A stretch of 11,612 nucleotides of DNA from Thermoanaerobacterales bacterium (GTDB lineage: Bacteria; Bacillota; Thermosediminibacteria; Thermosediminibacterales; Tepidanaerobacteraceae). Shown here in pieces: positions 6,051-11,267 of this stretch. The notes below the pieces were generated by a model. It searched no databases and was not told the origin of the DNA. It was given only the letters and a program-made list of their open reading frames with translations. The DNA lies in contig DUNY01000096.1 of the NCBI GenBank assembly GCA_012839145.1, positions 1 to 11,612 of the forward strand, read 5' to 3'. Each line of letters opens with the position of its first letter. Position 1 is the first letter of the stretch. Both the position numbers and the translations under genes were made by a program.

Positions 6051-6133
6051 GGACGGTTGAAATTATTCATCAATAAAGCAAGGGGACAGTTGTTGCTTTT
6101 TTTGATAAGAAAATTGTTTTGGAGGTTGTGGTT

Positions 6134-6301
6134 GTGAAGATACGTAAAGCAGTAATTCCTGCGGCAGGGTTAGGGACAAGGTTCTTGCCAGCTACAAAGG
6201 CACAGCCCAAGGAGATGCTGCCTATTGTTGATAAACCGACAATACAGTTTATTGTGGAGGAAGCGGTAAAATCCGAGATTGAGGAGATTCTTATTATCAA
6301 A
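6134..6301 (+). pseudogene. galU: Second truncated galU stub (about 55 codons), fused to galE sequence
   Basis: A GTG at 6134, 8 bases after GGAGG (6121-6125), starts a GalU N-terminus that follows the family through residue 55: [23 protein letters not shown], then IVEEAVKS and EEILII. The expected TGRNK motif is replaced by KGIK and the frame stops at TAG 6323-6325. From about 6299 on the sequence is the tail of a galE gene. The upstream leader (TTTTGGAGGT before the start) and codon choice resemble the stub at 1215, and a 26-base stretch is identical in both (1284-1309 and 6203-6228). Everything needed for sugar and metal binding is absent, so no activity is expected. Confidence 0.9.
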
Positions 6302-6463: not shown

Positions 6464-6528
6464 ATAACATAAAATCCCTCATCTTAATAGGTGTAGGGCT
6501 TATATTCAAAGAAAAGGAGGACTCATTA

Positions 6529-7443
6529 ATGAAAGTACGTAAAGCCATAATACCAGCTGCAGGATTGGGAACTCGCTTCCTTCCAGCTACTAAAGCACAG
6601 CCAAAAGAAATGTTACCTATAGTAGATAAACCTACTTTACAATACATCATCGAAGAAGCTATAGAATCAGGGATAGAAGAAATACTTATTATTACAGGAA
6701 GAAATAAATCCTCTATTGAAAATCATTTTGATAAATCAGTGGAGTTAGAGCTTGAATTGGAGAAGTCAGGTAAAACTGAATTATTAGAAGAAGTAAGGAA
6801 AATATCCGATATGGTGAATATCCATTATATACGTCAAAAAGAACCAAAAGGACTGGGACATGCTATTCATTGTGCAAAGAGCTTTATCGGAGATGAACCT
6901 TTTGCGGTATTATTAGGTGATGATATTGTATATAATCCGGAAAAGCCTTGTTTGAAGCAAATGATTGAGGCTTATGATGAATACAAGACTTCTATATTAG
7001 GTGTACAAGAGGTAGCACATGAAGATGTAAGTAAATATGGTATTGTAGAAGGAAAGCATATAGAAGGAAGAGTATATAAGGTAAAGGATTTAGTTGAAAA
7101 GCCATCTATAGAAGATGCACCTTCTAATATTGCTATTCTTGGAAGATATATCATCAATCCTGCCATATTTGAAATCCTAGAGCATACTAAGCCGGGCAAA
7201 GGTGGAGAGATTCAGCTTACAGATGGCTTAAAGGAATTAGCGCAAAGAGAAGCAATGTATGCCTATGTATTTGAAGGAAGAAGATATGATGTAGGAGATA
7301 AGCAAGGTTTCTTAGAAGCTACTGTAGAGTTTGCCCTTAGACGTGAAGATTTAAGACAAGAATTTCTTGATTATTTAGTGAAGACTGTTGAAAAGGAAAC
7401 AAAGAATCTTGATATAGAAGAAGCAGCTATAACTAAAGAATAG
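6529..7443 (+). CDS. galU: UTP-glucose-1-phosphate uridylyltransferase
   Basis: This intact 304-residue enzyme makes UDP-glucose from UTP and glucose-1-phosphate in the cytoplasm. It contains the nucleotide-binding loop [13 protein letters not shown] (residues 10-22), ITGRNK (55-60), the GLGHAI segment (108-113), the metal-binding LLGDD (128-132), the substrate motif VEKPS (189-193), GGEIQLTDGL (225-234) and GRRYDVGDKQGFLEA (250-264). The length is normal for bacterial GalU. AAAGGAGG at 6513-6520 precedes the ATG by 8 bases. Its codon use is more AT-rich than that of the two stubs upstream and the wording at the DNA level differs, so it is an older paralogue or a separate arrival. With galE it would provide UDP-glucose and UDP-galactose for envelope sugars; a terminator follows 73 bases later. 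Confidence 0.97.
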   Translation: MKVRKAIIPAAGLGTRFLPATKAQPKEMLPIVDKPTLQYIIEEAIESGIEEILIITGRNKSSIENHFDKSVELELELEKSGKTELLEEVRKISDMVNIHYIRQKEPKGLGHAIHCAKSFIGDEPFAVLLGDDIVYNPEKPCLKQMIEAYDEYKTSILGVQEVAHEDVSKYGIVEGKHIEGRVYKVKDLVEKPSIEDAPSNIAILGRYIINPAIFEILEHTKPGKGGEIQLTDGLKELAQREAMYAYVFEGRRYDVGDKQGFLEATVEFALRREDLRQEFLDYLVKTVEKETKNLDIEEAAITKE

Positions 7444-7695: not shown

Positions 7696-7720
7696 TTGCA
7701 TCTACATAGCGTAGATGCAA
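7696..7720 (-). terminator. Perfect 10-bp inverted repeat, likely terminator of the hicA-hicB-secB operon
   Basis: TTGCATCTAC (7696-7705) and GTAGATGCAA (7711-7720) are perfect inverted repeats with a 5-base loop. Read on the - strand the stem lies 60 bases after the SecB-like stop and is followed by TTTAATTG, a modest U-rich tail. A symmetrical protein-binding site is the alternative. Confidence 0.5.
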
Positions 7721-7779: not shown

Positions 7780-8172
7780 TTACTTTTCTATCTTTAAGTG
7801 CGGTGGTAGTATGAGATGCACGCCAATCATTTTTCTGGTTATTGATGCAACAATATAACTAACTTCGGCACCTAATGGTGATAATAATTCTTTAATATTT
7901 TCTTTAACGTCTTCATCAGACATTTCTTTTTTAAGCATAAAGTCTGCTATATGTTCTAATTTTATATAAAATAATTCGTTAGGATCTACAAAAGTTTCAG
8001 TAGTAACTTTTATTGTAAGATTATCCTTTTGGTTTTTTAAAATTTCATAATTAACTTCTTGTGCAATATTATATTTTTTCTTATCTGGATCCTCTTTAAT
8101 TTTGTTTGCAACTATTTCATTTAAATAGAATCTGCTTGCTTTAATATTTTCAGGAATACTTTTATTACCCAT
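7780..8172 (-). CDS. SecB-like chaperone of a toxin-antitoxin-chaperone (TAC) module
   Basis: The 130-residue protein has the size and layout of SecB: an N-terminal strand region starting at SRFYLNEI (residues 13-20), paired strands VNYEILKNQKDNLTIKVTTET (about 40-60), an ELFYIKLEHIADF strand (66-78), a charged turn, then a helix and the closing SYIVASITRKMIGV...LILPP (105-124), equivalent to the SecB pattern of an arm ending in PP-L-LPP. SecB-family proteins are cytoplasmic tetramers that hold clients unfolded. Most Firmicutes lack export SecB; solitary SecB-like genes next to toxin-antitoxin pairs act instead on the antitoxin, as in the M. tuberculosis HigBA1-Rv1957 TAC system. It is the third gene of the operon, 30 bases after hicB, with AAGGATGG as ribosome binding site. 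The role here is inferred from fold signature and context. Confidence 0.75.
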   Translation of the reverse strand: MGNKSIPENIKASRFYLNEIVANKIKEDPDKKKYNIAQEVNYEILKNQKDNLTIKVTTETFVDPNELFYIKLEHIADFMLKKEMSDEDVKENIKELLSPLGAEVSYIVASITRKMIGVHLILPPHLKIEK

Positions 8173-8202
8173 GATTAATCCATCCTTTTTAATAAATTTC
8201 CT

Positions 8203-8724
8203 TTATAGAGCTTTAAATCCAGGGTTTTCTATATTAAAGCTTGAACCTCTATTACCTTGATTTAGCTTTCTATATTCATCCCATGGATTTTTAATTAATT
8301 TATCAAAAAGAGGGTAATCACCATCAAAGCTAACAGAAATTTGATTTCTACCAAATTCATTCCCTATTCCCATTGAAATGTAAGTTATTATCAATTGATT
8401 TATACTACACCCTTCTTTTTCTGCTTGTTCTGCTATCATTTTATGCAAAAGTTTGGGCATTCTTAGTGTTAACTTACCGCTAAAATCATCTTCCACTTTA
8501 TATTTATCTGGTTCAGGGACCTTTCTTCCTAATTCCCTTGCAGTTTCTATCCAACATTTAATTGCATCTTTAACGTTTACCAATGCTTCTTCAGGAGTTT
8601 CTCCGTCACTCATACAACCAGGTAATTTGGGTACAGTAGCTAAAAAACCGCCTCCATCATTATTGGAAAGTTTTATTATTTCTACTTTGTAATCATTGAT
8701 GTCAATTTTATTAATTTCAGACAT
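8203..8724 (-). CDS. hicB: HicB antitoxin with ribbon-helix-helix domain and C-terminal extension
   Basis: The 173-residue protein neutralises HicA and should repress its own operon. Residues 11-75 form the HicB partial RNase H-like fold (YKVEIIKLSNNDGGGFLATVP, then LPGCMSDGETPEEALVNVKDAI), and residues 83-118 a ribbon-helix-helix DNA-binding segment (GKLTLRMPKLLH, EGCSINQLIITYIS). HicB of this type normally ends soon after the RHH part, near 110-140 residues; here about 55 more residues follow, with the aromatic stretch DYPLFDKLIKNPWDEYRKL (136-154). In TAC systems such a tail is the chaperone-addiction region that SecB-like proteins bind, so this extension may be the chaperone site. It lies 21 bases after hicA with AGGAGGAG as ribosome binding site. 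Confidence 0.9.
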   Translation of the reverse strand: MSEINKIDINDYKVEIIKLSNNDGGGFLATVPKLPGCMSDGETPEEALVNVKDAIKCWIETARELGRKVPEPDKYKVEDDFSGKLTLRMPKLLHKMIAEQAEKEGCSINQLIITYISMGIGNEFGRNQISVSFDGDYPLFDKLIKNPWDEYRKLNQGNRGSSFNIENPGFKAL

Positions 8725-8745
8725 TCTATCTCCTCCTATGACATT

Positions 8746-8997
8746 TTAAAATTCTTCCCTGACAGTTTCGAAAGCGCTTAATGCTTTTTTTATGTAAAAG
8801 TGCTTAATAGGTCTATCTTTTGGTATTGTTATAATTTCATCCAAATCAGAATGACTATATGTATAATGACTAGATCCGCCTTTTGGACTTCTTTTTGTAA
8901 AACCACCTATTTTAGTTAATAACTTATCAATATCTTGAAAGCTTACATCTTTAGGATTATTCCTAATTTTTTCATACAGTTTTTTATAATGGGCCAT
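8746..8997 (-). CDS. hicA: HicA mRNA interferase toxin
   Basis: The 83-residue protein is a HicA toxin, a small dsRBD-fold RNase that cleaves translated mRNA and halts growth unless bound by HicB. Seen in the sequence are the helix with SFQDIDKLLTKIGGF (19-33), the KGGSSHYTY strand bearing the catalytic His (H44), and ITIPKDRPIKHFYIKKAL (56-73), matching the usual HicA ending in which a conserved basic segment precedes a last helix. It is somewhat longer than the smallest HicA proteins. Start ATG 8997 has GGAGG 7 bases away (9005-9009); an in-frame ATG at 9036 lacks a binding site and is disfavoured. It is the first gene of the - strand operon, the usual toxin-first order of hicAB. Confidence 0.9.
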   Translation of the reverse strand: MAHYKKLYEKIRNNPKDVSFQDIDKLLTKIGGFTKRSPKGGSSHYTYSHSDLDEIITIPKDRPIKHFYIKKALSAFETVREEF

Positions 8998-9065
8998 GCA
9001 TAGTCCTCCATTATAGTTCCCTTTAATTGCTCCCATAAGGTAATAAATTAGATCATTTATGTTGC

Positions 9066-9104
9066 GGTATTATATATGATACCATAGCATTTCGGTTTTG
9101 TAAA
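9066..9104 (-). promoter_or_regulatory. Promoter and operator-like palindrome of the hicA operon
   Basis: On the - strand a -35 box TTTACA (9104-9099) and -10 box TATCAT (9081-9076) are exactly 17 bases apart, with TGG giving an extended -10. An 18-base imperfect palindrome, GGTATCATATATAATACC (9083-9066, 16 of 18 positions symmetric), covers the -10 box. RHH-type HicB antitoxins repress their operons by binding such sites, so this is the likely operator. Confidence 0.75.
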
Positions 9105-10672: not shown

Positions 10673-10707
10673 TTTGATTGAAGCCAACGGCTTCGGTATG
10701 ATATAAT
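10673..10707 (+). promoter_or_regulatory. Promoter with palindromic operator candidate for the DUF2281/MazF module
   Basis: The -35 box TTGATT (10674-10679) and -10 box TATGAT (10697-10702) are 17 bases apart; an overlapping TGATATAAT (10699-10707) gives an alternative extended -10. A perfect inverted repeat, GAAGCC-AAC-GGCTTC (10680-10694), fills the spacer, a suitable place for repression by the antitoxin or its complex. Confidence 0.65.
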
Positions 10708-10741
10708 GAATATACTACATTATTTGAAAGGTAGTGATAGA

Positions 10742-10939
10742 ATGAACACTGCTAAACAAGTATTATTAAAACTTATAGATGAAATTCCAGAAAATCAAAT
10801 ACATGAAGTAATAGATTTTATAGGCTATTTAAGAATAAAAAACGAGAGAGATATGTTTAAAGAGCTCGAAGAGGCAAGTAAAAGCAGTATAGATTTTTGG
10901 GATAATGACATAGATGATGAGGTATGGAATAATGTATAA
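10742..10939 (+). CDS. Antitoxin of the DUF2281/MazE-like type, partner of the downstream MazF
   Basis: The 65-residue acidic protein has an N-terminal helical part, LIDEIPENQIHEVIDFIGYLR (about residues 11-31), resembling DUF2281-type antitoxin domains, and an acidic, Trp-rich tail (SSIDFWDNDIDDEVWNNV) of the kind that wraps around the MazF active site. Its stop overlaps the toxin start by 8 bases (ATGTATAA), the usual coupling of antitoxin and toxin. An ATG at 10706 is in frame but falls inside the promoter's -10 region, so ATG 10742, after AAAGG at 10728-10732, is preferred. The pair probably represses itself through the palindrome at 10680-10694. The antitoxin family assignment is from general resemblance and context. 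Confidence 0.8.
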   Translation: MNTAKQVLLKLIDEIPENQIHEVIDFIGYLRIKNERDMFKELEEASKSSIDFWDNDIDDEVWNNV

Positions 10940-11267
10940 GCAAGGAGATATCTTACTAATTCCAATACCATTTACAGATTTGACATCCAGTAAAAAGAGA
11001 CCTGTTCTTGTGCTATCAAATGATGATTATAATTCTAAAACAGATGATATAATAGTTGTTGCTATTACTTCAAATCTTACATCAAAGGACTATAGTGTAT
11101 TTATTACGAATAGTGATTTGGTGGAAGGAAATTTAAAAGTAGATTCATGCATAAGAGTAGATAAGATTTATACTTTAGCCCAAAATATTGTTATTAAGAA
11201 ATTTGGCGAAGTGAATGATGATGTTATAAATGAGATAAAGAATAGAATTAATGAACTAATAAAATAA
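10932..11267 (+). CDS. MazF/PemK-family mRNA interferase toxin
   Basis: The 111-residue protein starts MYKQGDILLIPIPFTDL, the typical first strands of the PemK/MazF barrel, followed by KKRPVLVLSN with the catalytic Arg (R23) and VVAITSN with the catalytic Thr (T46). CIRVDKIYTL (73-82) is the usual late conserved strand and a C-terminal helix closes the fold. MazF toxins cut RNA at short sequence motifs and arrest growth when the antitoxin is lost; the motif cut cannot be read from the sequence. Length is normal. ATG 10932 is chosen because GAGG at 10919-10922 is 9 bases ahead and the family begins at this methionine; the ATGs at 10914 and 10917 are less well placed. Confidence 0.92.
   Translation: MYKQGDILLIPIPFTDLTSSKKRPVLVLSNDDYNSKTDDIIVVAITSNLTSKDYSVFITNSDLVEGNLKVDSCIRVDKIYTLAQNIVIKKFGEVNDDVINEIKNRINELIK

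Follow-up and report, generated by a model that had tools for sequence, protein, structure and literature searches.

A HicAB pair followed by a predicted SecB-like chaperone in a Thermoanaerobacterales genome: a probable toxin-antitoxin-chaperone module

What does a small gene do directly behind hicA and hicB in a Gram-positive genome? We asked this of contig DUNY01000096.1 from a Thermoanaerobacterales bacterium, analysed as a stretch of 11,612 nucleotides (the window). Toxin-antitoxin-chaperone (TAC) modules generally consist of HigBA, HicAB or MqsRA together with SecB (PMC5105189, 2016). SecB is mainly proteobacterial and tied to the outer membrane; SecB sequences also occur in Firmicutes, and according to a 2014 review it is still to be discovered what SecB-like proteins do in monoderms (PMC4257090). 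A sequence-only reading had proposed that the window encodes a HicA toxin, an elongated HicB antitoxin and a SecB-like chaperone. Our data indicate, at a probability of about 0.82, that the operon is a HicAB-type TAC module in which its tail makes HicB depend on the chaperone.

The three open reading frames (ORFs) are closely spaced on the minus strand, as had been claimed. The order is hicA (8746-8997, 83 aa), hicB (8203-8724, 173 aa) and the SecB-like gene (7780-8172, 130 aa), with gaps of 21 and 30 nt. The hicA ORF spans 8746-9036 and has an in-frame ATG also at 9036, but the internal ATG at 8997 is the more likely start since GGAGGAC stands 5 nt before it. HicB scored over the Pfam cut-offs for PF15919 (44.2 bits, cut-off 27, E 2.6e-11, residues 19-116) and PF05534 (40.9 bits, cut-off 21, E 1.9e-10, residues 79-114), and a profile of its relatives found the HicB chains 6u0i, 6g1c, 6g1n and 6hpb in the PDB (E 4e-8 to 2e-7). 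HicA matched PF07927 at 23 bits, under the cut-off of 27 (E 8.4e-5), and a profile of 14 relatives gave weak PDB matches to 1whz (E 0.0022) and HicA3 4p78 (E 0.057). His44 was invariant in all 14 aligned HicAs; we take it to be the conserved catalytic histidine of HicA. The weak family match, this histidine and the position beside hicB suggest that the toxin gene is HicA-like. Thus of the three families proposed for profile searches, HicB was found over its cut-offs, HicA stayed below and the third protein did not match the SecB family PF02556. Neither Pfam nor NCBIfam placed this third protein in a family over cut-off, and PADLOC gave no match for it. Far below cut-off stood DUF5742 and DUF2808 in Pfam, both dismissed on their scores, and one NCBIfam family; PHROGs gave a weak hit (E 0.0054) to a single family whose function is unknown.

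We found that the third protein is instead recognisable by its predicted structure. An AlphaFold2 model built from 31 diverse rows, none with a PF02556 match, reached a predicted local distance difference test (pLDDT) score of 86.3 and consists of a four-stranded sheet followed by helix, the topology of SecB. Loci from the PF02556 search were left out of this input so that the SecB fold could not be fed in. An earlier run on the A1 set of 6 close homologues gave a pLDDT of 38.8 and was discarded. Using Foldseek and VIA-align, Rv1957 of Mycobacterium tuberculosis and SecB were the top structural matches, the best by Z being Rv1957 (12.6), and hhalign against the PF02556 SecBs of the phylum gave a probability of 96.5. 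This suggests that the protein has a SecB superfamily fold, and the identities that had been assigned to the three genes from motifs are supported by Pfam, by the profiles of relatives and by this prediction. The locus therefore holds the gene set of a TAC, a HicAB pair beside a SecB-family chaperone gene, with the family recognised by fold and not by PF02556.

To what extent do relatives keep the three genes together? A profile of the chaperone (A2) matched in 17 of 398 genomes of the phylum, and 13 of the 17 loci lay directly behind hicB. All 13 had a HicA match, which was weak at L020 (7e-4); at L015:1927-2750 (G338) hicA is split over two frames, the second part in frame with hicB, and was left as found. 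With a wider profile (A5) and another draw of the same size (398 genomes), which overlapped the first, we found 28 loci in 27 genomes. Joined, the two draws come to 28 genomes with 29 distinct loci. The chaperone gene stands behind hicB at 16 of these loci, a share that is biased and not neutral, as the seed of the profiles was the HicAB-linked protein of the window. The gene order of the window thus recurs in 16 genomes of 13 families. Neither of the refuting outcomes that could be checked has appeared: a SecB fold is predicted, and the trio stays linked in relatives. In named contigs a further profile (A8) found four loci (Peptococcaceae, Clostridia, Thermincola ferriacetica and Bacillota metagenome-assembled genomes), all hicA-hicB-chaperone; these were kept out of the counts, as three share their HicB tail with L011, L012 and L014. 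This sharing makes Bacillota, or a phylum near it, the likeliest identity of the phylum sampled. The protein database held four chaperones of the close type (P0001-P0004, 75-95% identity), and viral contigs scanned with P0001 held no relative. The window's own genome (2.58 Mb, 493 contigs) has one copy of the chaperone and a single match each for its own HicB and the A9 profile, the two queries with which hicAB copies were sought. PF02556 had no match in this draft, which is 89% complete, and this supports the earlier expectation that the genome lacks an export SecB.

The HicB tail sets the chaperone-linked antitoxins apart. In the window it covers 8206-8355 on the minus strand (50 codons, residues 124-173). 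Beyond the ribbon-helix-helix (RHH)-type core, 15 chaperone-linked HicBs carry tails of 43-77 aa (median 54) and the 14 nearest chaperone-less HicBs tails of 3-47 aa (median 18.5). A tryptophan is present in 14 of the 15 linked tails, where 5.5-7.9 would be expected at tryptophan frequencies of 0.8-1.3%, and in 2 of the 14 others. The p-values of these comparisons (Mann-Whitney 7e-6 for length, Fisher 2e-5 for tryptophan) are too good, since the tails and genes are related and not independent. The single tryptophan of the window's tail lies in KNPWDEYRKL, and tail contexts include NPWDEY (window), NLWQKI, DKWHER, RLWEEA, REWYKH, EQWSRA and NQWRHF. The elongation of HicB that the sequence-only reading had noticed is therefore real and exceeds that of two-component relatives, and we regard the tail as a candidate chaperone-addiction region by analogy with the ChAD of M. 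tuberculosis HigA1 (PMC5105189, PMC6377645).

For this comparison chaperone-less HicBs were drawn from the best 30 HicB matches, and were those with no same-strand SecB-like ORF in the fetched flank (mostly 1-1.5 kb, 589 bases for L024 and 137 for L102). L024 (G004) was counted among them because only a chaperone remnant is present. Near copies or copies (L010 of L009, L025 of L023, L105 of L102), the masked tail of L106 and the repeats L085-L096, L098, L100, L101, L104 and L110 were omitted; L103 was kept though also close to L102. A SecB-like gene stands elsewhere in the genomes of G145, G396, G231 and G255.

Relatives that have lost the chaperone show what becomes of the tail. In G011, of the same family as the window, HicA and HicB are kept (HicB 75% identical), HicB ends at residue 147 with a tail of 24, and a search of the 2.5-kb locus turned up no piece of the chaperone. 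In G004, also of the same family, the tail is 29 residues long and the end of HicB is overlapped by a remnant of chaperone strands 3-4 (E 6e-10 among 13 pieces); the cut tail and remnant lie at L024:1840-2090. The database entry P0006 itself joins HicB 1-74 to chaperone residues 98-128, and this chimera looks like an internal deletion. In two genomes of the same order (G016, G017) the HicBs are 128 aa long, their tail has 10 residues, and no chaperone gene adjoins. These events fit addiction, in that an antitoxin may live without the chaperone once its tail is gone. Separately, we observed by eye a short repeated element (GRFVCQV.NL) that flanks the truncated hicAB of G011 on both sides (L022 and L117).

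Pairwise distances of the chaperones correlate with those of the HicB cores (r 0.68, p 5e-5, 15 pairs) and of the HicAs (r 0.73, 12 pairs). On a maximum-likelihood tree of 43 chaperones the HicAB label changes 4 times, compared with 8.2 in shuffles, and is thus clustered. Since the labels cluster and the distances correlate without the linked members forming a single clade, the pairing is old or repeated; the long branches of the tree limit the reading to this.

How might such a module work? By family, HicA would be a small RNA-cleaving toxin, which HicB neutralises while probably repressing the operon through its RHH-type domain. The extra C-terminal tail would make newly made HicB dependent on the co-encoded chaperone, which would hold on to the tail, with the single tryptophan as the probable site of contact, until HicB has folded and joined HicA. 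Under a shortage of chaperone HicB would be lost and HicA would become active. Tail binding, the dependence of HicB, the toxicity of HicA and this trigger are what we infer; gene identities, fold, linkage, tail and tryptophan were computed. A further proposal, which we hold tentatively and at slightly less than even odds, is that the Pfam-invisible SecB branch has travelled with HicAB across the phylum as a dedicated antitoxin chaperone rather than for export, reading a one-tryptophan addiction tail on an RHH-type antitoxin by the same chemistry as the HigA1 tryptophan.

Several observations weigh against reading the operon as a TAC module. PF02556 matched none of 21 members of the A3 set (the window's included) and none of 7 further members (0/28), the A3 profile did not find SecB among PDB sequences (best E 0.53), and the protein is about 10% identical to solved SecBs. 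Toxin-antitoxin genes are not the sole setting of the family, as hicAB does not precede 13 of the 29 loci; the seeding of the profiles biases the share of loci that it does precede, and relatedness makes the tail p-values too good. PF02556 SecBs were found in 21 of 299 genomes of the phylum, and the 12 loci fetched from that search contained neither HicA nor HicB matches. The HicAB-linked chaperones do not form one clade, the 77-aa tail of G170 has no tryptophan, the chaperone-less HicB of L111 has two in 19 residues, and a single deletion across both genes could alone explain the joint loss in G004.

Could the third gene instead encode a SecB-like chaperone with general or export duties in a monoderm, placed behind hicAB without serving it, with HicB folding alone? 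Members without a preceding hicAB exist: in G030 and G051 the neighbours were read and no toxin-antitoxin gene was recognised beside the chaperone, in G076 and G228 a HicA/HicB search found no hicAB before it, and around it in L071, L073 and L074 no toxin-antitoxin gene was recognised. The literature describes solitary SecB-like genes in monoderms (PMC4257090), and TAC chaperones, among them the one from the Methylomonas HicAB module, can stand in for E. coli SecB when overexpressed (PMC5105189). A general role does not account for the 16 of 29 loci directly behind hicB, or for tails that are long with the chaperone and mostly short without it. It also sits poorly with a taxonomic order in which the chaperone occurs in 1 of 22 genomes and the tails of four close HicBs without an intact one (G004, G011, G016, G017) are truncated or very short. 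We therefore consider it quite unlikely. Chance neighbourhood of an unrelated small gene is barely credible: the third protein alone lacks a family match over cut-off, but the same order in 16 genomes of 13 families, the correlated divergence and the SecB fold contradict it.

Instead of assisting folding, the SecB-fold protein might be an extra HicAB subunit, an operon regulator, or a sensor that sets off HicA once phage or stress proteins remove it. This is improbable as the sole explanation, though such a role may coexist with that of antitoxin chaperone. A role in phage defence is described for the SecB-containing CmdTAC (PMC11618068), and the G+C content of the operon (0.27-0.32) is below that of the nearby galE, murJ and galU (0.35-0.44), as is often so for mobile genes. 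Against it, none of the three proteins matched PADLOC, the chaperones of the window and L014 had no relative in plasmid or phage collections (tblastn), and a sensor role has no direct evidence. The reading of the operon as a TAC module with a chaperone-dependent HicB tail thus remains the one we prefer.

How does it compare with known systems? In the HicAB TAC of Methylomonas methanica, toxin control needs the chaperone, as shown in E. coli, and the module likewise consists of hicA, hicB and a SecB-like chaperone; its HicB extension covers residues 119-159, compared with about 124-173 here (PMC5105189). The window's chaperone is unrecognised by PF02556, and the Methylomonas module was compared by description only. 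Methylomonas methanica is a proteobacterium. In M. tuberculosis Rv1955-Rv1956-Rv1957, whose chaperone is the best structural match, the toxin-antitoxin pair is HigBA1 and not HicAB, and the chaperones are about 10% identical. There the HigA1 tail confers chaperone dependence and can be grafted (PMC5105189); W108, R110 and Y114 are the main contacts (PMC6377645), in WHRLSSYR, where the window's HicB has WDEYRKL. CmdTAC (PD-T4-9) also places a SecB-like chaperone behind toxin and antitoxin, but its toxin is an ADP-ribosyltransferase (ART) (PMC11618068), and the listed chaperones of its relatives in the phylum do match PF02556. Two-gene HicAB modules share the HicA and HicB domains, the nearest chaperone-less HicBs mostly without the long tail.

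Since HicAB TACs (PMC5105189) and 33 TAC chaperones outside PF02556 (PMC4257090) are published, the window's operon joins a known kind, and the novelty that had been seen in a HicAB version is not supported. What is added here is the Pfam-invisible, HicAB-linked branch in this phylum, its recurrence, the tail tryptophan and the loss events. In the literature searched, these four additions were not found, nor were HicAB-SecB chaperones in Firmicutes or Clostridia; Sala et al. 2013, which reportedly lists TACs by taxon, stands outside that search.

SecB-like genes of the phylum were also seen in other company; the 13 loci without hicAB in front include L070, L079, L075, L080, L077 and L078. At L070:1486-3099 a SecB-like gene of the same branch stands with an MqsA antitoxin (PF15731, 5e-14) and an ORF assigned by eye as MqsR-like, with no Pfam match, which we read as an MqsRA-type TAC. 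In G142 and G247 (L115:4349-6086, L075, L080) the gene lies between a RAMP-superfamily protein (PF03787 8e-6, PADLOC Csm3 5e-8 in the L075 copy) and a 232-aa protein without Pfam match, possibly a chaperone-containing defence module. Other sets surround it at L077, L078, L051 and L052, those of L077 and L078 being three-gene sets like L075 and L080; in L051 a 404-aa protein has a PF02556 domain as its C-terminal part and a 247-aa ORF comes after it, and apart from this domain no family over cut-off was matched by the flanking proteins that were scanned (L077, L051 and L052). CmdTAC-like sets of ART-like toxin, small antitoxin and SecB were seen at L041, L042, L043, L044, L047, L048, L050 and L079, by a PADLOC PD-T4-9_A match in L041 (1e-6), by eye for the ART-like gene of L079 and otherwise by resemblance.

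The single promoter assigned to the operon has a plausible site, TTTACA-17-TATCAT with an extended TG before the second hexamer (9076-9104, minus strand, 10/12 match), but such matches are no commoner in the region (10) than in shuffles (12.2 +/- 3.6), so that it does not exceed chance frequency. Over the -10 site lies an inverted repeat, GGTAT-8-ATACC (9066-9083, minus strand), a possible operator at which HicB may repress the promoter. Downstream of the operon a scan found a terminator-like stem, TTGCATCTACGCTATGTAGATGCAA (7696-7720, minus strand); the region has 2 such stems on both strands, compared with 0.9 +/- 1.0 in shuffles. Elsewhere in the window, a PemK/MazF-like toxin (PF02452, 1.7e-20) and an ORF that matches DUF2281 below cut-off make up another toxin-antitoxin pair at 10706-11267. 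A 126-nt stretch from the 5' end of a galU-like gene, so named by resemblance, occurs three times (1195-1320, 6114-6239, 6509-6634), the second and third copies 83% and 66% identical to the first and only the third in a full-length ORF (6529-7443).

A Pfam-invisible SecB branch tied to HicAB gives some monoderm SecB-like genes a concrete job. The locus is a defined test object, with one tail, one tryptophan and one chaperone, and the relatives with cut tails are natural experiments on losing chaperone dependence. If the tentative proposal of a branch travelling with HicAB is true, PF02556 counts would understate how common TAC modules are in monoderms, and an antitoxin whose chaperone gene is lost would escape addiction by dropping its tail.
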